Part shown: in pieces, positions 18,098 through 30,722 of the stretch | Layout of the letters: every line of letters begins with the position of its first letter | How positions within the stretch are numbered: position 1 is the stretch's first letter | Assembly (NCBI GenBank): GCA_040218145.1 | Contig: JAVJQK010000083.1 | Span: 1-54,602, forward strand | Origin: Sandaracinaceae bacterium | GTDB lineage: Bacteria; Myxococcota_A; Polyangia; Polyangiales; Sandaracinaceae | Length of the DNA: 54,602 nt | Direction: 5' to 3' | Program-made: the position numbers and the translations under genes | Notes under the pieces: generated by a model | Database searches by the model: none | Told to the model about the DNA's origin: nothing | Seen by the model: the letters and a program-made list of their open reading frames with translations, nothing else

Positions 18098-18502
18098 TCA
18101 GTAGTGCACGGCGCGCGGGAGCTCCTTGGCGTGTGCGACCCACTTCTCGACCGTGCCCGCGCTGGGGAGCGCCCGGACGAGGCTCTCCTCCGCGTTGATG
18201 CTCTTCATCTTGTCGTGGAGGTTCTCGGCGTTGCGTCGCGAGAGCTCGACCACGGTGTCCACGCCCGCGCGCTCGAGCAGGTCGGCGTACTCCTCGCCCA
18301 CGCCGTTGATGCGGAAGAGGTCCGCCATGTTGACCCAGCGGAGCAGGGACTTCTCGGGCACCCCGCTGTCCGCGGCGATGCGCTTGCGCGCCTCGGGCTG
18401 GGCGGCCTTCTCCAGCAGCGCCTCCACCGTCTGGATGCCCGCGTCCTCGAGCTTCTCCGCGTACGCGGGCCCGATGCCTTCAATCTCGCTGATGTTCGCC
18501 AT
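18098..18502 (-). CDS. DUF4332 helix-hairpin-helix protein
   Basis: A 134-residue protein with two helix-hairpin-helix-like repeats: IEGIGPAYAEKLEDAGIQTVEALL and INGVGEEYADLLERAGVDTVVEL begin them (residues about 7 and 65). This is the DUF4332 pattern, related to small DNA- or nucleic-acid-binding HhH domains. A GAGGAG ribosome-binding site precedes the ATG at 18502. It forms a self-contained unit: a sigma-54-like promoter 42 nt upstream and a strong intrinsic terminator downstream. Its role is not established; a nucleoid-associated or stress-related DNA-binding role is inference only. Confidence 0.9.
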   Translation of the reverse strand: MANISEIEGIGPAYAEKLEDAGIQTVEALLEKAAQPEARKRIAADSGVPEKSLLRWVNMADLFRINGVGEEYADLLERAGVDTVVELSRRNAENLHDKMKSINAEESLVRALPSAGTVEKWVAHAKELPRAVHY

Positions 18503-18635: not shown

Positions 18636-19928
18636 CTACAGCTCGTCGCGCCAGAGATCTTCGACCGTCTGGCGGCGACGGATCACCCGGGCCTCGCCGC
18701 CGTCCACGAGGATCTCCGCCGCCTTGGGGCGCGAGTTGTAGTTGCTCGCCATGGACATGCCGTAGGCGCCCGCGCCGCGGAGCAGCACCAGGTCGCCGCG
18801 CTCGAGGTGCGGCACGGCGCGATCGATCGCGAAGAAGTCGCCCGTCTCGCACACCGGGCCCACCACGTCGGCCGGGCGGTGCGCCGCGTCGCCAGGCTCC
18901 CGGACGTGCATGATCGCGTGGTAGGCGTCGTAGAGCGCGGGCCGGATGAGCTCGGTCATGGCGCCATCGACGATGACGAAGCGCTTGTCGGCCTGCTCCT
19001 TGACGAAGATCACGCGCGTGAGCAGCCCGCCCGCGTCGCCGACCAGCGCGCGGCCCGGCTCGACGATGAGCTCCAGGCCGAGCTTCGCGGCGCCGCCCGC
19101 CTCGAGGCCCTCGGCGATGGCGGCGCCGAAGTTCGGCCAGGGCGCGTGCTCGGCGTCCTCGTCCCCGTAGCGGATGGGCCAGCCGCCGCCCGCGTCGATG
19201 CAGCGGAGCTCGGCCCCCGCCTCGACGCACTCCACCGCGAAGCGCGCGAGGATCTCGGTCGCGTCCCGCATCGGGTCCGGGCCGCCCAGCTGGCTGCCGA
19301 TGTGGCAGGCGACGCCCTCGAGCCGCAGGTGAGGGCTCGCGACGACGCGCGGCAACAGCGCGCGCGCCGCGTCCAGCTCGAGGCCGAACTTGGTCTCGTG
19401 CAGCCCCGTCGCGATGTAGGGGTGGGTGTCGGGATCGACGTCCGGGTTCACCCGCAGGGTCATGGGCGCCCGCACCCCGCGCTCGGCCGCGATGGCCTCG
19501 AGCGCGTCGATCTCGGGGGCGCTCTCCACGTGCACGGCGCGGATCCCGGCCTCGAGGGCCAGGGCGAGCTCGCGGTCCGTCTTGCCGACGCCGCTGAAGA
19601 CGATCTTCGCCGGGTCCATGCCCGCCTGCAGGCAGCGCCGCAGCTCCCCGCCCGAGACGATGTCGGCGCCGCAGCCGCGCGCCGCGAGCCGTCGCAGGAG
19701 ATGCAGGTTGCTGTTGGCCTTGATCGCGTACGCGACCAGACACGGCTGCGGCACGGCGGCGACGAGGCGGTCGTAGGCGTGGTCGATGCAAGACCCCGAG
19801 TAGACGAAGGTCGGCGTGCCGTGCGCGTCGGCCACGTCCCGGAGGGGGACGCCGTCGCAGGTCAGGGCGCCGTCTTCGTAGACCCAGTGGTTCGAGAAGG
19901 GGATCTCGGTGCGGGTGCCGCGCTCCAT
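18636..19928 (-). CDS. lysA: Diaminopimelate decarboxylase
   Basis: A 430-residue PLP enzyme of the alanine-racemase fold. It decarboxylates meso-diaminopimelate to L-lysine, the last step of lysine synthesis. Evidence: PLP-binding Lys70 in YAIKANSN, HIGSQ, the glycine-rich phosphate loop GGGWPI, EPGRALV, CETGDFFA and GAGAYGMSMASNYN. The ATG at 19928 shares one base with the argH stop (TGATG), so the two are translationally coupled. Related ornithine/arginine or carboxynorspermidine decarboxylases are less likely given GDFFA and the YNSRP tail. Confidence 0.96.
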   Translation of the reverse strand: MERGTRTEIPFSNHWVYEDGALTCDGVPLRDVADAHGTPTFVYSGSCIDHAYDRLVAAVPQPCLVAYAIKANSNLHLLRRLAARGCGADIVSGGELRRCLQAGMDPAKIVFSGVGKTDRELALALEAGIRAVHVESAPEIDALEAIAAERGVRAPMTLRVNPDVDPDTHPYIATGLHETKFGLELDAARALLPRVVASPHLRLEGVACHIGSQLGGPDPMRDATEILARFAVECVEAGAELRCIDAGGGWPIRYGDEDAEHAPWPNFGAAIAEGLEAGGAAKLGLELIVEPGRALVGDAGGLLTRVIFVKEQADKRFVIVDGAMTELIRPALYDAYHAIMHVREPGDAAHRPADVVGPVCETGDFFAIDRAVPHLERGDLVLLRGAGAYGMSMASNYNSRPKAAEILVDGGEARVIRRRQTVEDLWRDEL

Positions 19929-21331
19929 CACGCCTCCCCGAGCTGGACGTCGCGGCTGGCGAGCCGCGCCGCGAGCGCCTCGATCTGCTCGGCGACGCGC
20001 GCGCGCGCCGGACCTCCGTAGAGGGCGCGCCGCTCGATGGCGGTCTCCGGATCGAGGGCCGCGAAGAGGGTCTCGTCGAACGCCTCGTGCTCCTCCCGCA
20101 GCTCCTCGAGCGTCAGCTCGGGCAGCGTCTTCTTCGCGTCCACGCACCGCCTCACGAGGCGCCCCGTCACGTGGTGCGCCTCCCGGAAGGGGACCCCGCG
20201 CGCGGCCAGCCAGTCGGCGACCTCGGTCGCGTCCACGAAGCCGTGCTCGAGCGCGGCCCGCATGCGGACGGCGTCGAAGCGCGCCGTGTCGATCGATCCC
20301 GCGAGCACGTCGACGCAGTCGTTCACCGTGTCGAAGGCGTCGAAGACGGGCGGCTTGTCCTCCTGCATGTCGCGGTTGTACGCGAGCGGGAGCGCCTTCA
20401 TCAGCATCAGCAGGTTGACGAGGTGCCCGACCACGCGCCCGGTCTTGCCGCGGGCGAGCTCCGCCATGTCGGGGTTCTTCTTCTGCGGCATGATCGACGA
20501 GCCGGTCGTGTAGGCGTCGCTCATCTCGACGAAGCCGAACTCCTGGCTGCTCCAGAGCACCAGCTCCTCGGCCACGCGCGACAGGTTCACCGCGCAGATG
20601 CTCAGGGCGGAGAGGACCTCGAGCAGGAAGTCCCGGCTGCCCACCGCGTCGAGCGAGTTGCGGGTGGGGCCGCGGAAGCCGAGCGCCTTCGCCGTCATCT
20701 CGCGGTCGAGCGGGAAGGTCGTACCTGCCAGCGCGGCCGAGCCGAGCGGGCTCTCGTTCAGTCGGCGCGCCGCGTCCTCGAGCCGGCCTCGATCGCGCTC
20801 GAGCATCTCCGCCCACGCCAGCACGTGATGGGACAGGCGCACCGGCTGGGCGCGCTGGAGGTGGGTGTAGCCGGGGAGCAGGTGATCCTGGAGCTCGGGC
20901 GCGCGCCGCGCGATCACCGCGAGGAAGCGGTCGATGCGGCGGCAGGTGTCGGCGCAGGCCTCGCGGGTCCAGAGCCGCATGTCCGTCGCGACCTGGTCGT
21001 TGCGGCTCCGGCCGGTGTGGAGGCGCCCGCCGGCCTCGCCGATCCGCTCGGTGAGGAGTGACTCCACGTTCATGTGGACGTCCTCCTTCTTGGGATCCCA
21101 GCGCATCTCGCCGCGCTCGATCTCGCCGCGGATCGCCTCGAGCCCGGCCGCGATCTTCTCCGCGTCGGCCTCGGTCACCACGCCGCGCGAGGCGAGCATG
21201 CGCACGTGCGCGATGGATCCGCGGATGTCCTGGTCGGCCAGCCGCTTGTCGACGTCGACCGACGCGCTGAAGCGCAGCGCCAGCGCATCGAGCTCGTCTT
21301 CGAATCGTCCGCCCCAGGCTTTGTCACTCAT
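19928..21331 (-). CDS. argH: Argininosuccinate lyase
   Basis: A 467-residue member of the fumarase/aspartase superfamily, releasing arginine and fumarate from argininosuccinate. The start matches the family (KAWGGRF). [13 protein letters not shown] (105-117), YTHLQRAQP with the general-acid His157, and the mobile signature loop [12 protein letters not shown] (277-288, catalytic Ser) are all intact. Length is standard. It is the first gene of an argH-lysA pair, an arrangement known in several delta-lineage bacteria. It is divergent from the P-type ATPase homologue (86 bp). Confidence 0.98.
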
Positions 21332-21417: not shown

Positions 21418-23721
21418 GTGCCGTCCGAGCCGACGACCCAGAGCGAGGGGCCGCCTCCCGTGGAGCCCTCCGTTCCCCTCGAGGCCACCGCCTCCGAGGC
21501 TGCTCCTTCCGAGACGGCTCCTCTGGAGGCGAGGCCGTCTCCGGAGCGGCCGCGGCTGCCCGAGGTCCCGTGTCCCGTCTGCGGGAAGCAGGTCGAGCCG
21601 CTGCGCGCCGGGGCGGTGATCTTGCTCGAGGACGGCTTCCGGTTCCTGTGCAGCGTGGACTGCCGCGGCCGCTACTTCGACGGGGAGCGCGACCACGACG
21701 CCTCGCGCGAGCAGCTGCGGACCACCACCGCGCGCCGCCGCGCGGCCAAGGCGCCGGTCCGTCGCAAGCCGATCCCGACCCCCTCTCCCGATCGCTCGGC
21801 CGCGTACGAGGCGCTCTCCGCGCCGCCGATCCCGCCCCCGTGGCTGGGGCTCGGGCTCTCCGCCCTCGCCGCCCTCTTCGCCGGGTTCGCGACGCACCCC
21901 GCGCTCGCGATCCTGAGCGCCGTCGCCGTCGCCGCGGCCGCGGGCGCCGCGCTGCTCCGCGGGTTCGGCGCGCGCCGCGAGGTCGGCTGGCTGGGCTGGG
22001 CGCTCCCGCCCACCGGCGCCGCGCTGGCCGCGGTGGCGGCGCTGGTCGCGGTCGAGGGCGACCCGCGTCTCCCGCTCGCCGGGGCGTCGGTCGCGGCCGC
22101 GGCGGTGGTGGTGCGCGCCTGGCTGGACGCGCGCGCGAACCAGCCCGTGACGCAGCTGGTCGGCGCGCTCCTCAGCAAGATGCCGAGCACGGTTCGCGTG
22201 CCGCTGAAGGCGGAGGACTGGGCGGTCGTCGTCGAGTCCGAAGAGGTGAACGCGAGCCGGGTTCGCACGGGCCAGGAGATCGTCGCGGGCGAGGGCGAGG
22301 TCCTCGCGGTGGACGGCGTGGTGCAGGCGGGCGAGGCCTTCGTGCTGCTCCACCCCGCGAGCCGCACGCCGGTGCGCCGGAGCGCGGGCCAGCCGCTGCT
22401 GGCCGGCGCCCGGGTGGTCGAGGGTGAGGTCCGTGTGCTCGCGACCCGCGTGGGAGACGACCGCGCGCTCGTCCGGCCGCGCACCTTCGGCGACGTCGGG
22501 TCGGGGAGGGCGGCGTCCCTCACCAAGCTGGCCGCGCGCGTGGGGCGCTGGGGCGGGCTGGCCGCGCTGCTCGGCGCGGTCGCGAGCCTCTTCGTGGCCG
22601 CGGGCCTCGAGGAGCAGCTCGCGGCGGCGGCGGCGGTCCTGCTCGCGGCGCCGCTCATCGCCATCCGGCGCGCGTCCGATTCCCCGTACGTCGCCGCGGC
22701 CGCGACGGCGGCCGAGCGGGGCATCGTCTTCGCCAGCGCGCGCACCCTGGACCGCGCGGGCCGCGCGAGCGTCGGCGCGCTCTGCACGCACGGCACCATC
22801 ACCGAGGGCGAGCCCGAGGTCGTCGAGGTGCACACCTTTGGCGACGAGGACTGGAAGCCGCTGGTGGCGCTCGTGGCCGGCGCGGAGTCTGCGGCGGAGG
22901 GTCACCCCATCGCGTCGGCGGTCTTCCGTTTCTGCGGCAGTCGCGGCATCGAGCCGGCCTCGGTGCGGCGCGCCGACTTCAAGGCGGGCCGCGGCGTCAC
23001 CGCCGTCGCGCCGAGCGGAGAGGCGCTGGTCGCGGGCAACCGCGCGCTGCTGCTCGAGGAGGGGGTGAGCGTCGCCGTCGCGGACGCGCACGCGACGCGC
23101 GCCGAGGAGCGCGGGCACACCGTGGTCTTCGTCGGGACGGGCGGACGCGTCCGCGCCGTGATGAGCTTGCGCGACGAGGACCGCATCGGCGCGCGCGCCG
23201 CCGTGCAGCGCCTGATCGACCTCGGCATCGAGGTCGTGCTGATCAGCGGCGACCACCGGGGCACCGTCGAGGCGCTCGCCAAGCCGCTCGACATCACCCA
23301 CGTGAAGGCGGAGCTGCTGCCCGACGAGCAAGGCGCCGAGGTGCGACGCCTCCGGGAGACCGGCGGCGTGGTGGCGGTCGTGGGGCGCCCGACCGATCAC
23401 GCGGCGCTCGAGGCCGCCGACGTGCCCGTGTTGCTCGGCGCGGCGGGCCTTCCCGAGAGCGACCGCTCGATCGCGCTCACGAGCGACGACGTGCGAGACG
23501 CGAGCGCGGCGCTCTGGCTCGCGGCCGCCGCCCGCCGCGCCGCGTGGCGGGGCACGCTCGCGGCGGCGCTCGGCGGAGGCTTCCTGGTCCTGCTCGCCGC
23601 GCTCGGCGTCGCGGGCCCCGCCTTCGCGGCCGTGCTCGCCCTCGGGGTCGACGCCTACGCGCTCCCCAGCGCGGCCCGGCTGCTGCGCCGCATCGAGCTG
23701 CGCCTCCCGGCCCGCGGCTGA
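21418..23721 (+). CDS. Catalytically degenerate P1B-type ATPase homologue with Cys-rich N-terminus
   Basis: A 767-residue membrane protein with the plan of a metal P1B-ATPase but without its chemistry. An N-terminal CPVCG...FLCSVDC cluster (Cys52, 55, 78, 82) resembles TRASH/YHS metal-binding domains. Transmembrane segments lie near 142-235, 377-417 and 695-740. At the phosphorylation site the usual DKTGT is CTHGT (454-464 ALCTHGTITEG), so Cys456 replaces the essential Asp. The actuator TGES is absent (HPASRTPVRRSAGQ), the CPC metal motif reads LLAAPLIA, and GDGxND is VGRPTD. The nucleotide-domain HP motif (GHPIAS, His496) and SGD survive. The frame is intact over its full length, so it is not a simple pseudogene. 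Metal sensing, a scaffold or a regulatory role is inferred. Confidence 0.9.
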   Translation: MPSEPTTQSEGPPPVEPSVPLEATASEAAPSETAPLEARPSPERPRLPEVPCPVCGKQVEPLRAGAVILLEDGFRFLCSVDCRGRYFDGERDHDASREQLRTTTARRRAAKAPVRRKPIPTPSPDRSAAYEALSAPPIPPPWLGLGLSALAALFAGFATHPALAILSAVAVAAAAGAALLRGFGARREVGWLGWALPPTGAALAAVAALVAVEGDPRLPLAGASVAAAAVVVRAWLDARANQPVTQLVGALLSKMPSTVRVPLKAEDWAVVVESEEVNASRVRTGQEIVAGEGEVLAVDGVVQAGEAFVLLHPASRTPVRRSAGQPLLAGARVVEGEVRVLATRVGDDRALVRPRTFGDVGSGRAASLTKLAARVGRWGGLAALLGAVASLFVAAGLEEQLAAAAAVLLAAPLIAIRRASDSPYVAAAATAAERGIVFASARTLDRAGRASVGALCTHGTITEGEPEVVEVHTFGDEDWKPLVALVAGAESAAEGHPIASAVFRFCGSRGIEPASVRRADFKAGRGVTAVAPSGEALVAGNRALLLEEGVSVAVADAHATRAEERGHTVVFVGTGGRVRAVMSLRDEDRIGARAAVQRLIDLGIEVVLISGDHRGTVEALAKPLDITHVKAELLPDEQGAEVRRLRETGGVVAVVGRPTDHAALEAADVPVLLGAAGLPESDRSIALTSDDVRDASAALWLAAAARRAAWRGTLAAALGGGFLVLLAALGVAGPAFAAVLALGVDAYALPSAARLLRRIELRLPARG

Positions 23722-23731
23722 TCCGGGGCTG

Positions 23732-25390
23732 CTACTCGGTCACGTGCACGACGCTGCCCGCGCGGGGCTGCGTGACGCTGAGGCCGTGCCAGCCCGGCGG
23801 GAGCTCGGGCGCGCTCCACTGGAAGATCCAGCGCGCGTCGGCGGGCGCGAGGTTCACGCAGCCGTGGCTGCGCTCGCGGCCGAAGCGGTCGTGCCAGAAC
23901 GCGGCGTGCAGGGCGTAGGAGCCCTCGAAGTACATCGTCCAGGGGACGTCCTCGATGGAGTAGGCCTCGTCGCCTGCGTTCGGGTCGTCCATCGTCGTCG
24001 AAACGTGCTTGGACTGGATGCGGAAGGTGCCCGTCGGCGTCTCGTAGCCGGCGCGGCCGGTCGAGACGAGGGTGGCGAAGACCGGGCGGTCGCCCTCGTA
24101 GGCGACGAGGGTCTGCGACGACAGATCCACGTGCAGCCAGTGGTCGTCCTCGCCCACGCCGGCCGGGCGGGCGAGGGCCTTGGCGACGCGGATCGCGTCC
24201 TCGCGCACGATGCGGCCGCGGTCGTCGACCCGGTAGCGGCGCTGGCGGCGCGTGATCACCTCGTCGGTGAGCGGCATCGGGGTCAGGCGCTCGATCGGCG
24301 CGGCGAGCGACAGCGCGCCGTCGGACGCGCCGCGGGCGAGGGACCGCACGCCTCCTCGGTAGACGAAGCCCAGCGGGAGCTGCCAGCGGCCTCCGAGCAC
24401 CACGCCGCGCATCGTGGGCGGTGACGCCTCGATCATCGCGTCGGCCGGTACGTAGGCGCCGCGGATCGTCCGATAGAAGCGTCGGCCGTCGTGGGTCTCG
24501 AGCCGATCGATGCTCACGTAGAAGCCGCGGCGCATGCGCATGCGGAGGAAGGAGGGCTGCGCGTCTGCCTCGGGCGTGCCCGCGTCCGCCGGGCGGGGCT
24601 CCGCGACCCGCGGCTCCGCGGGGGCGCTCGCGGTCAGCTCCTCCGGCTCCGCGTTCAGCTCCGCCGCGTCGCCGTCGAGGCCAGGCGGCGCCTCGAGATC
24701 CGGCTCCGGCGTCGGCTCGTCCTCTGCGTCGGCCGAGGCGGCCTCGTCGCGTCGCCGCTGCCGCTCGATCCAGGCGCGCGCCGTCGCCTCCTCTTCGCGG
24801 CTCGGCACCCGCCAGTACTGCGGCACGTCGTCGCGGCCGACCCACGCGTAGGCGTAGGGAAGGGCCGCGTCAGCGATCGGCGCGACGGGGGACGACTCGA
24901 AGGTCTGCGCGCGCTCTCCGAGCGCGAAGCCGTTGCCGCGGCACACGAAGCCGCCGCCGGGCACGCGGCTCCAGCCGCGCTCGCAACCCGGCCCTCGGAG
25001 CCCGGGCTGGGCCCGGAACTGCGCGCCGCGCCGCATGTACCCGATCACCGGGCTGCGGCCGTCCGGGCGCGCGTGGACCTGGGCGAGGAAGTGATAGGCG
25101 ACGCCGTGCCACGGGTACTCGCGCTCGAACGCGGCCCGCGCGGCCTCTTCACGCGCCTGCGCGAGCGCCTCCGGGTCCGGCGCCGGCGCGGGCGGCGGAG
25201 GCGGCGGCGTGGGGCGGGGCTCGGCGCGGGTCGGCTCGGGCGCCTCGACCCTCGGCGTCGGCGGCGCGGCCTCGAACGCGACGACGCGCGGCTCGGGCTC
25301 GAGCGCGATCGGGCTGACCTCCGGCTCCCGGCAACCGCCGAGGGAGAGGAGGAGAGTGAGACTGACGACTGTCTTGCGCCGCTTCGACAT
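23732..25390 (-). CDS. L,D-transpeptidase (YkuD) lipoprotein
   Basis: A 552-residue exported protein. The ATG at 25390 opens a signal peptide with lipobox LGGC. A long Pro/Glu/Ala-rich spacer and a probable SH3-like region (VHARPDGRSPVIGYMRRGAQ, residues about 105-160) precede a central region with a second acidic linker. The C-terminal YkuD catalytic domain has HAAFWHDRFG and SHGCVNL, giving the nucleophile Cys511. These enzymes form 3-3 peptidoglycan cross-links or attach proteins to the wall. It sits 53 bp downstream of the esterase/M15-like gene on the same strand, so the pair probably acts together on the envelope. It converges with the ATPase homologue 10 bp away. Confidence 0.94.
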   Translation of the reverse strand: MSKRRKTVVSLTLLLSLGGCREPEVSPIALEPEPRVVAFEAAPPTPRVEAPEPTRAEPRPTPPPPPPAPAPDPEALAQAREEAARAAFEREYPWHGVAYHFLAQVHARPDGRSPVIGYMRRGAQFRAQPGLRGPGCERGWSRVPGGGFVCRGNGFALGERAQTFESSPVAPIADAALPYAYAWVGRDDVPQYWRVPSREEEATARAWIERQRRRDEAASADAEDEPTPEPDLEAPPGLDGDAAELNAEPEELTASAPAEPRVAEPRPADAGTPEADAQPSFLRMRMRRGFYVSIDRLETHDGRRFYRTIRGAYVPADAMIEASPPTMRGVVLGGRWQLPLGFVYRGGVRSLARGASDGALSLAAPIERLTPMPLTDEVITRRQRRYRVDDRGRIVREDAIRVAKALARPAGVGEDDHWLHVDLSSQTLVAYEGDRPVFATLVSTGRAGYETPTGTFRIQSKHVSTTMDDPNAGDEAYSIEDVPWTMYFEGSYALHAAFWHDRFGRERSHGCVNLAPADARWIFQWSAPELPPGWHGLSVTQPRAGSVVHVTE

Positions 25391-25443
25391 GACCCCGCTT
25401 CCCGATCGCACGGCCGGGCGCCGGGCGTCCAAAAAGCGACGAG

Positions 25444-28423: not shown

Positions 28424-29845
28424 ATGGCTAGACCGGGGCTGCTTCGACCCCACACCTCCGAGTTGACGCTCCTGCAGCGGCTGTTCGACGCGGGGTGGAT
28501 CGCGCTGACCCACACGCTGGCGTACTACTTCCACCCGGACGCGCACTGGTTCACGGATCAGACCGTGGCGACCGGCGGCGCGGTCCTCATCTTCTACATC
28601 ACCGGTGAGATCGCCGGTCTCTATCAGGCGTGGCGGGGTGTGCCGCTCGGCAACCAGATCGCGCGCATCTGGATGGCCTGGCTCCCCGTGGTGATGGTCC
28701 TGCTCGCCTCGGCCTTCGCCCTCAAGACGACCGACCGCTTCAGTCGGGTGGCGTCGGGCGGGTGGCTGATCCTGGCCCCGGTCGCGATCACGATCTGGCG
28801 CACGGCCATCCGGATGCTGCTCCGTCGCCTCCGGGCGCAGGGGAAGAACCTCCGGACCGCGGCGGTGTGCGGGGCGACCGAGATCGGGCTCGATCTCGCC
28901 AACCGCATCCTCAGCTCGCCGCACCTCGGGATCAAGCTGCTGGGCTTCTTCGACGACCGCACCCCGGAGCGCACCGAGCGGGTGAGCATGAGCTTCGGCG
29001 GCGTGGTGGGTCGCTTCGACGAGCTGGTGCAGAAGGCGAAGGACGGCGAGGTCGACCTCGTCTACATCGCGCTCCCGCTCAAGGCGGAGCCGCGGGTGAA
29101 CGATCTGTTGCGCAAGCTCGCCGACACGACCGCGAGCGTCTACATCGTGCCGGACTTCTTCGTCTTCGATCTCCTTCACGGCCGCTGGAGCGCGCTCGGC
29201 GACGTGCCGGTGATCAGCATCTTCGAGACGCCCTTCTACGGCGTCGATGGCTGGCTCAAGCGCGTCGAGGACGTCGTGCTCGGGAGCTTCTTCCTCATCG
29301 TCGGCGCGCCGCTGATGATCCTCATCGCGATCGCGATCAAGCTCAACAGCAAGGGCCCCGTGTTCTTCAAGCAGCGCCGCTACGGGCTCGACGGCGAGAC
29401 GATCGAGGTCTTCAAGTTCCGCTCGATGACGGTCGCCGAAGACGGAGCCGAGGTGAAGCAGGCGAAGAAGAACGACCAGCGCGTCACGAGCGTCGGCCGT
29501 CTGCTGCGGCGCACCTCGCTCGACGAGATCCCGCAGCTCATCCACGTCGTGACCGGCTCCATGTCGCTGGTGGGGCCGCGGCCCCACGCGGTCGCGCACA
29601 ACGAGCTCTATCGCAAGAAGATCGCGGGCTACATGCTGCGCCACAAGGTCAAGCCCGGCCTCACCGGCTGGGCTCAGGTCAACGGCTGGCGCGGCGAGAC
29701 CGACGAGCTGTGGAAGATGGAGAAGCGGATCGAGTACGACCTCGAGTACATCCGCCGGTGGGGCGTCGTGTTCGACCTGAAGATCATCGTCATGACCGTC
29801 TGGGGCGTGCTCTTCGGCGGCAAGGTGCGGCAGAACGCGTATTGA
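28424..29845 (+). CDS. Polyisoprenyl-phosphate hexose-1-phosphate transferase (WcaJ/WbaP-like)
   Basis: A 473-residue membrane enzyme that starts exopolysaccharide, capsule or O-antigen repeat units by moving a sugar-1-phosphate from UDP-sugar to undecaprenyl phosphate. Four N-terminal membrane helices lie in residues about 15-125. A nucleotide-fold central domain follows (CGATEIGLDLANRI...LLGFFDDR). Next comes a membrane-associated hairpin (about 285-310) and the catalytic bacterial sugar transferase domain: KFRSM, RRTSLDEIPQ, GPRPHA, KPGLTGWAQVNGWRGET and the EYDLEYIRRW end. The ATG at 28424 has a ribosome-binding site (GAGCGAGG). No other polysaccharide genes adjoin, although GT2 enzymes occur 11 kb downstream. 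Confidence 0.95.
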   Translation: MARPGLLRPHTSELTLLQRLFDAGWIALTHTLAYYFHPDAHWFTDQTVATGGAVLIFYITGEIAGLYQAWRGVPLGNQIARIWMAWLPVVMVLLASAFALKTTDRFSRVASGGWLILAPVAITIWRTAIRMLLRRLRAQGKNLRTAAVCGATEIGLDLANRILSSPHLGIKLLGFFDDRTPERTERVSMSFGGVVGRFDELVQKAKDGEVDLVYIALPLKAEPRVNDLLRKLADTTASVYIVPDFFVFDLLHGRWSALGDVPVISIFETPFYGVDGWLKRVEDVVLGSFFLIVGAPLMILIAIAIKLNSKGPVFFKQRRYGLDGETIEVFKFRSMTVAEDGAEVKQAKKNDQRVTSVGRLLRRTSLDEIPQLIHVVTGSMSLVGPRPHAVAHNELYRKKIAGYMLRHKVKPGLTGWAQVNGWRGETDELWKMEKRIEYDLEYIRRWGVVFDLKIIVMTVWGVLFGGKVRQNAY

Positions 29846-29893
29846 GGGCCTTTTCTTTTGGGCGGGGCTTTTCAAGCCCCTCCCCCCCGCTGC

Positions 29894-29950
29894 GCCGAGG
29901 CAACGATGTTCGCTTCGGGCTTCGCCCTTCGCAAACATCGCTGCCTCGGC
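29894..29950. repeat. Long imperfect inverted repeat (20-bp arms)
   Basis: Arm 29894-29913 (GCCGAGGCAACGATGTTCGC) is the reverse complement of arm 29931-29950 at 18 of 20 positions. The 17-bp spacer contains a further CGGGC-TTCG-CCC hairpin. As RNA or single-stranded DNA it would form a long cruciform or stem. It may be a dispersed palindromic element, but a second copy is not present in this window. Confidence 0.8.
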
Positions 29951-30118
29951 TCCACGGGGCCCCCCCAACCCAAGTCGGGCGACTTCGTCGCCCGTGTCCC
30001 GCGCTCCGCGCGTGAGCCACGCGCCTCGCGCTTTCGCTGCGCGAAAGCTGGGCGCCCGCTGCCGCGGGGGACCCGCGTGGTGGACGACGTCGCTCGCGTT
30101 CGTCGTCGGCTCCTCGTG

Positions 30119-30530
30119 CGCTCCCGCTCCCGCTCCCGCTTCCGCTTCCGCTCCCGTTTCCCGCTCCCGCTCCCGTTTCCCGCTCCCGTTTCCCGCTCCC
30201 GCTCCCGTTTCCCGCTCCCGCTCCCGTTCCCGCTCCCGCTCCCGTTCCCGTTCCCGTTTCCGTTCCCGTTTCCCGCTGCCGCTCCCGTTCCCGCTCCCGT
30301 TCCCGCTCCCGTTCCCGCTCCCGCTCCCGTTCCCGCTCCTGCTGCCGCTGCCGCTGCCGCTGCCGCTCCCGCTCCCGAGTCCGTTGCCGCTGCCGCTCCC
30401 GCTCCCGCTCCCGCTCCCGCTCCCGCTCCCGCTCCCGCTCCCGCTCCCGCTGCCGAGTCCGCTGCCGAGTCTGCTGCCGAGTCCGCTTCCGCTCTTGTTC
30501 CGCGTCTGCTCCCCGCTCCCGAATCTCCTC
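30119..30530. repeat. Degenerate CCCGCT/CCCGTT/TGCCGC hexamer array
   Basis: Roughly 410 bp of hexamer-period sequence: CTCCCG, TTCCCG, TTTCCCG and CTGCCG variants, becoming uniform CTCCCG near 30400-30450. It is the same unit family as 1-132 and 54180-54310. Occasional 7-bp units (TTTCCCG) break the 6-bp phase, as expected for noncoding sequence free of frame constraint. Confidence 0.92.
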
Positions 30531-30722
30531 GCGGATGCGCTTCCGGTTCCGAGCCCTCGCGTGCTCCCTCAGCGGCGCGTCCAAGGGCGCGTCCAGGGGG
30601 CGCGGAGGTCGTGCGGGGGAGGTAGAAAGCGGTTGGCTCCCAGTTGTTCTTCCGAGAACGACTGGGGCCGTGCGGTGCGTGGGGGGCCTCGGGGACGCGT
30701 TCTCGGGCGCCGGGTGGGGGCG

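Follow-up and report, generated by a model that had tools for sequence, protein, structure and literature searches.

The window, by which we mean the whole 54,602-nucleotide stretch of DNA analysed, belongs to the genome of a myxobacterium close to Sandaracinus. The gene of interest is an intact frame of 767 amino acids, with a GTG start and a stop codon, that encodes a pseudo-P1B-ATPase, referred to below as the pseudo-pump. Its position, its domains and its neighbours are given in Table 1. A sequence-only reading had described it as a full-length P1B homologue. The protein matches TIGR01525 (2.5e-60, 205 bits; the curated cut-off is 346 bits) and, both above threshold, the Pfam families E1-E2_ATPase and Hydrolase, and its nearest solved sequence in the PDB is CopA (1.8e-38), all in agreement with that description. 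The pseudo-pump is thus a genuine P1B relative. It is not a KdpB, as TIGR01497, the P1A profile, gave 35 bits compared to 205 for TIGR01525.

Table 1. Features of the pseudo-pump gene and its neighbours (positions in the window)
Feature	Position	Strand	Basis
lysA (diaminopimelate decarboxylase), travels with argH	18636..19910	-	context
argH (argininosuccinate lyase), divergent, 86 bp from the pseudo-pump	19928..21331	-	context
Pseudo-P1B-ATPase ORF	21418..23721	+	frame reading, profile matches, predicted structure
Four-Cys domain core, residues 52-82, TRASH/YHS/L24e type	21571..21663	+	alignment, profile, fold prediction
Membrane helices MA, MB, M1, M2, residues 142-252	21841..22173	+	DSSP on model; no Cys/His/Met
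Actuator domain, residues 253-362	22174..22503	+	alignment
TGES position, PASR, residues 313-316	22354-22365	+	motif alignment
Membrane helices M3-M4, residues 367-433, CPC replaced	22516..22716	+	model, alignment
Phosphorylation-site position, CTHGT in place of DKTGT, residues 456-460	22783..22797	+	motif alignment
N domain, residues 463-583: E490, H496-P497, G524xG526, G540-N541-R542	22804..23166	+	alignment, structure
SGD (TGD equivalent), residues 610-612, kept	23245..23253	+	motif alignment
GRPTDH, degenerate GDGxND, residues 656-661	23383..23400	+	motif alignment
Membrane helices M5-M6 and C-terminal helix, residues 692-762	23491..23703	+	model
L,D-transpeptidase (YkuD), convergent	23732..25432	-	context

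Motifs were compared in an alignment of 11 canonical P1B pumps with 66 homologues, 54 of them from the same order and 12 from other orders. The replacement of the phosphorylated Asp by Cys456, the loss of TGES, CPC and GDGxND, and the presence of HP, SGD, the membrane helices and a four-Cys N-terminal domain had all been read from the sequence, and all were found again. The losses are common to the family: the phosphorylated Asp, the Glu of TGES and the first Asp of GDGxND, a Mg ligand, are each present in 11 of 11 canonical pumps versus none of the 66 pseudo-pumps, and no CPC or CPx membrane metal site was found in M4 among the 54 same-order and 12 other-order homologues. In the window protein the CPC stretch has become AAPLIA (residues 410-415, within AAPLIAIRR, 410-418), with a proline retained nearby. 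The second Asp of GDGxND is retained in the order. Two losses come in addition to those first listed, the Lys of DKTGT (11/11 canonical pumps versus 1/66 pseudo-pumps) and the Lys of HAD motif III (11/11 versus 1/54 in the order), the latter being an Arg in 47 of the 54 and Gln638 in the window protein. By known P-type chemistry a Post-Albers cycle is impossible when the phosphorylated Asp, TGES, CPC and this first Asp are missing, so the cycle cannot run here. Two of the 11 canonical pumps, paralogues with all motifs intact (L048 and L049), are encoded in the same genome as the pseudo-pump; the organism therefore also has real pumps.

Could the protein nevertheless be an active pump or phosphatase, using Cys456 or some other residue as a non-canonical nucleophile? 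Cys is the commonest residue at this position (29 of the 54 same-order homologues), and the protein retains SGD, the second Asp of GDGxND and a HAD fold. However, CTHGT did not prove to be conserved: the column also holds Ser (10), Ala (4), Leu (4), Asn (2), Val (2) and Phe, Pro and Gln (one each), so that no Cys nucleophile is implied, and a conserved one was ruled out. In addition, the HAD Lys and the first Asp of GDGxND are gone, as is the membrane metal site, and M3-M4 is the most relaxed region of the protein. We consider an active enzyme very improbable.

Long homologues, at 34-66% identity, were found in most of the 57 related genomes searched. In a sample of 144 genomes of the class, strong matches (E <= 1e-55) were confined to the order (18 genomes), and a search with the N-terminal domain recovered more distant members in other orders; in one other family of the class, f20, 13 of 14 genomes carry a pseudo-pump. 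Named records with members of the family are Sandaracinus, Sandaracinaceae, Myxococcales and Polyangia MAGs. A single branch splits canonical pumps from pseudo-pumps, with a support of 100 in a quick tree of 52 rows and of 100/100 in a careful mixture-model tree of 32 rows; the position of the root and the grouping of the members from other orders (71/32) are less certain. Subgroups of pseudo-pumps track taxonomic families.

A sequencing error or frameshift at 22783-22800 was ruled out, given that full-length relatives across the order and the class share the losses. Ongoing decay of a former pump, as a pseudogene or under relaxed selection, would be in keeping with the relaxation of the membrane helices and the actuator described below, and with the loss of the actuator in another family. 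It is contradicted by the full-length open frames kept across order and class over deep branches, by the invariance of the N-terminal Cys quartet and of Arg542, and by the dN/dS values. For pairs with a usable dS, the Nei-Gojobori method gave 0.048 (a pair 98% identical), 0.088, 0.11-0.13 and, for the remaining pairs, 0.14-0.31, values similar to those of adjacent genes compared between the same genomes (0.06-0.36). The window protein and its nearest relative, L002 (67% identical), gave 0.44 at a dS of 0.62, and one pair at 42% identity gave an uninformative 0.67. The pseudo-pump is under ordinary purifying selection. A case for decay might have been made from orthologues with an intact DKTGT and relaxed selection in the window; the orthologues, however, lack DKTGT as well. 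Decay is in our judgement the least probable of the explanations considered.

The fold is predicted to be intact. An AlphaFold2 model built on 24 alignment rows (pLDDT 88.9, pTM 0.81) shows the eight expected helices, MA to M6, and the A, P and N domains. Foldseek and VIA-align group it with P1B ATPases (7r0g, 4bbj, ATP7B), and its P and N domains superimpose on those of CopA with AMPPCP (3a1e) at 1.6 Å over 264 residues (Z 26). KdpB structures are also among the fold matches. Human TMEM94, discussed below, is absent among the structure matches listed, which is uninformative either way.

The distribution of constraint along the protein is inverted compared to pumps, the head being guarded and the membrane helices and actuator relaxed. 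Mean pairwise identity in canonical pumps, a small set (n=8) not matched in divergence to the pseudo-pumps, is 0.62 for M3-M4, 0.61 for M5-M6 and lowest, 0.41, for the N domain, versus 0.23 for M3-M4, 0.26 for M1-M2, 0.34 for M5-M6, 0.44 for the N domain and 0.49 for the lower P domain in pseudo-pumps. In the f20 homologues the actuator is deleted, 30-34 residues separating M2 from M3 instead of 108. No Cys, His or Met is present in the membrane helices of the window protein, which offer no metal-ligand array. To judge from these alignments, the transport path has been released from constraint and the head has not. The first reading had proposed a sensor, a channel or a scaffold; sensor and scaffold remain candidates, and a channel using the old ion path is disfavoured because the helices show the weakest conservation and have no metal ligands.

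In the head, the pocket of the N domain (Glu, HP, GxG and a further Gly) is complete in the window protein. Gly524, Gly526, Gly540 and Gly656 are fixed or nearly so in the order, where Glu490 is kept in 45 of 54 homologues and Pro497 in 50. His496 is less constant: present in 34 of the 54 (lost in 20), it is found in none of the 12 members from other orders. The Asn of the GN pair is variable across pseudo-pumps. The Arg next to it, Arg542, is invariant (66/66) and specific to the family, as only one of the 11 canonical pumps has it.

The N-terminal domain is the other guarded part. Conservation of its cysteines had been proposed as a check, and Cys52, Cys55, Arg63, Cys78 and Cys82 (spacing Cx2C...Cx3C) are invariant in all 66 pseudo-pumps. 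Taken alone, the domain (53 residues) is predicted to form a small zinc-finger-like unit (AlphaFold2 pLDDT 92.6). Its best fold matches, weak ones (E 0.03 or weaker), are eL24-type, that is L24e ribosomal proteins, the fold group to which TRASH and YHS domains are compared. Pfam TRASH, MYM/FCS and DUF7576 match it, all below their curated cut-offs.

Similar domains were noticed in other settings. Three short proteins (L140:2879-3463, L141:2663-3235 and L143:2585-3364) combine a YHS/TRASH domain of the VDxLRAxAVGIF type with one C-terminal membrane helix, and are stand-alone relatives of the N-terminal domain of the pseudo-pump. By eye, at L142:2793-4037 a membrane helix and HEAT-like repeats come after the same Cys domain, and at L185:5959-7059 (minus strand) two TRASH-type Cys domains are fused ahead of a ParA-like ATPase. 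An 835-amino-acid frame with the N-terminal motif (L176) gave no match to the profile of the pseudo-pump family.

The residues needed for pumping are lost, yet the head and the four-Cys domain are guarded, which points to something other than a pump. That the protein is not a pump and is nonetheless functional seems to us very probable. The first reading had suggested a repurposed pseudo-pump, and the shared losses, the low dN/dS, the invariant cysteines and the predicted intact fold speak for this. A protein that retains its nucleotide pocket and Cys domain most likely serves as a membrane-anchored binding protein with a conformational or scaffolding output. Our main reading, to which we give a probability of about 0.6, is a membrane-anchored pseudo-pump that binds nucleotide, metal or both and acts as a sensor or regulator. 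A P1B-type metal ATPase would have been duplicated, and one copy would have lost phosphoryl transfer, dephosphorylation and the membrane metal site early in the class, the dead copy being kept since as a membrane-anchored pseudo-pump. Its N domain may still bind nucleotide without hydrolysing it, as suggested by GxG, the third Gly, the Glu, the mostly retained His-Pro and the new Arg542, and the TRASH-type domain may bind a metal ion. Ligand binding would then alter the contacts of the head with partner proteins at the membrane, as in a sensor or regulatory subunit and not in a transporter. We hold ligand sensing of this kind to be reasonably likely. The partner may differ by lineage, trkH in one family and arg genes in others.

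Gene order varies by lineage. In 19 related genomes argH immediately follows the pseudo-pump on the same strand, usually with lysA next, and a YkuD L,D-transpeptidase gene often adjoins it in the order. Another family of the order has it behind argD in 16 genomes, often also behind argF, which it overlaps by 4-5 bp in two; in eight genomes a Fur-family gene comes after it. Four genomes of a third family have it ahead of frr. Three genomes have apbE, for an FAD:protein FMN transferase, after it (L126, L128, L132); in L128 the two genes overlap by 1 bp and are followed by rsmH/mraW and a penicillin-binding protein gene. In f20, 9 of 13 genomes (five genera) have trkH immediately after it and co-directional, with a gap of 8-42 bp where starts were read. 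The trkH-linked, actuator-less pseudo-pumps (L127, L129-L131, L133, L136, L194, L196, L200) recall the pairing of KdpB with KdpA. Two other features of the window were noted in passing: a 134-amino-acid protein at 18098-18502 (minus strand) with helix-hairpin-helix-like repeats (MANISEIEGIGPAYAEKLEDAGI...), DUF4332-like by eye, and, between two genes at 29800-30650, a long low-complexity stretch with (Arg-Glu)n, (Ala-Gly)n and (Pro-Leu)n frames on both strands.

The positions next to argH, argD and argF, including the argF overlaps, would suit a membrane scaffold or regulator tied to enzymes of arginine and lysine biosynthesis. However, both arg arrangements may go back to a single ancestral cluster and thus reflect an inherited gene order, other families of the order have frr as a neighbour instead, and no biochemical link is known; we regard this role as unlikely. 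Hardly better placed, and doubtful too, is a role in which the protein regulates or stabilises a K+ transporter as a subunit, modelled on KdpB, a P-type ATPase, and KdpA, of the TrkH superfamily. TrkH is a relative of KdpA. The f20 gene order and the KdpB structures among the fold matches favour such a subunit; against it, trkH is no neighbour in the order of the window, the host genome has two trkH genes elsewhere, and the sequence is P1B and not P1A. No neighbour is common to all families, so that a single functional partner was rejected on synteny, and any given partner is improbable. A broader proposal, a class-wide pseudo-P-type family whose state is set by nucleotide and metal and which controls a lineage-specific partner (TrkH, in Kdp-like manner, or arginine biosynthesis), is tentative, if somewhat better placed than any one partner. 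The sensor or regulator set out above thus remains our preferred reading.

Pseudo-kinases and pseudo-phosphatases are well known. Catalytically dead P-type ATPases, in contrast, are almost undocumented, the one discussed case found being human TMEM94, which is disputed. A literature search for a dead P-type ATPase or pseudo-pump in bacteria retrieved no paper, which is weak evidence of absence, as subscription papers lay mostly outside it. The present family is large and deeply vertical, comes with and without an actuator and has active paralogues in the same genomes, which makes it a natural experiment on a P-type head that does not pump. The homology label "heavy metal translocating P-type ATPase" would misname such genes.

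Compared to the P1B ATPases CopA, CopB and ZntA (TIGR01525; 3a1e, 7r0g, 4umv), the pseudo-pump has the same fold, with eight helices, A, P and N domains and most of the N-domain pocket, but lacks all the catalytic and metal-transport residues, has a relaxed actuator and membrane core, and carries a TRASH-type domain in place of the HMA domain. It descends from such pumps but fails the tests that define them, and should therefore not be filed as one. Canonical P1B pumps with an N-terminal YHS/TRASH-type domain also exist (L048 of the same genome, at G000:C74, and L137, L177 and L186); DKTGT, TGE(S/P) (SGE in L186), CPC and GDGxND are intact in these, and they stand apart in the tree. They are a plausible source of the pseudo-pump family. 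The adenylyl cyclase of Mycobacterium phlei carries a YHS domain, a related small Cys module, as a probable Cu2+ switch (PMC4626032); there the protein context is different and the enzyme is active. In KdpFABC, a P-type subunit works with a channel-like SKT subunit, an arrangement comparable to a pseudo-pump with trkH, but KdpB is active and P1A, and the link of the pseudo-pump to trkH is one of gene order alone, confined to f20. Human TMEM94 (ERMA) has a P-type architecture without TGES; it was found with AMPPCP bound, with no detectable ATPase activity and no Post-Albers conformations (PMC12134183). Its status is contested, PMC13322241 arguing for a Mg2+ ATPase. Unlike the pseudo-pump, it is eukaryotic, has ten helices, keeps the Asp (D417) and has no reported four-Cys domain. 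By analogy of architecture, TMEM94 would be the closest described analogue of the pseudo-pump.
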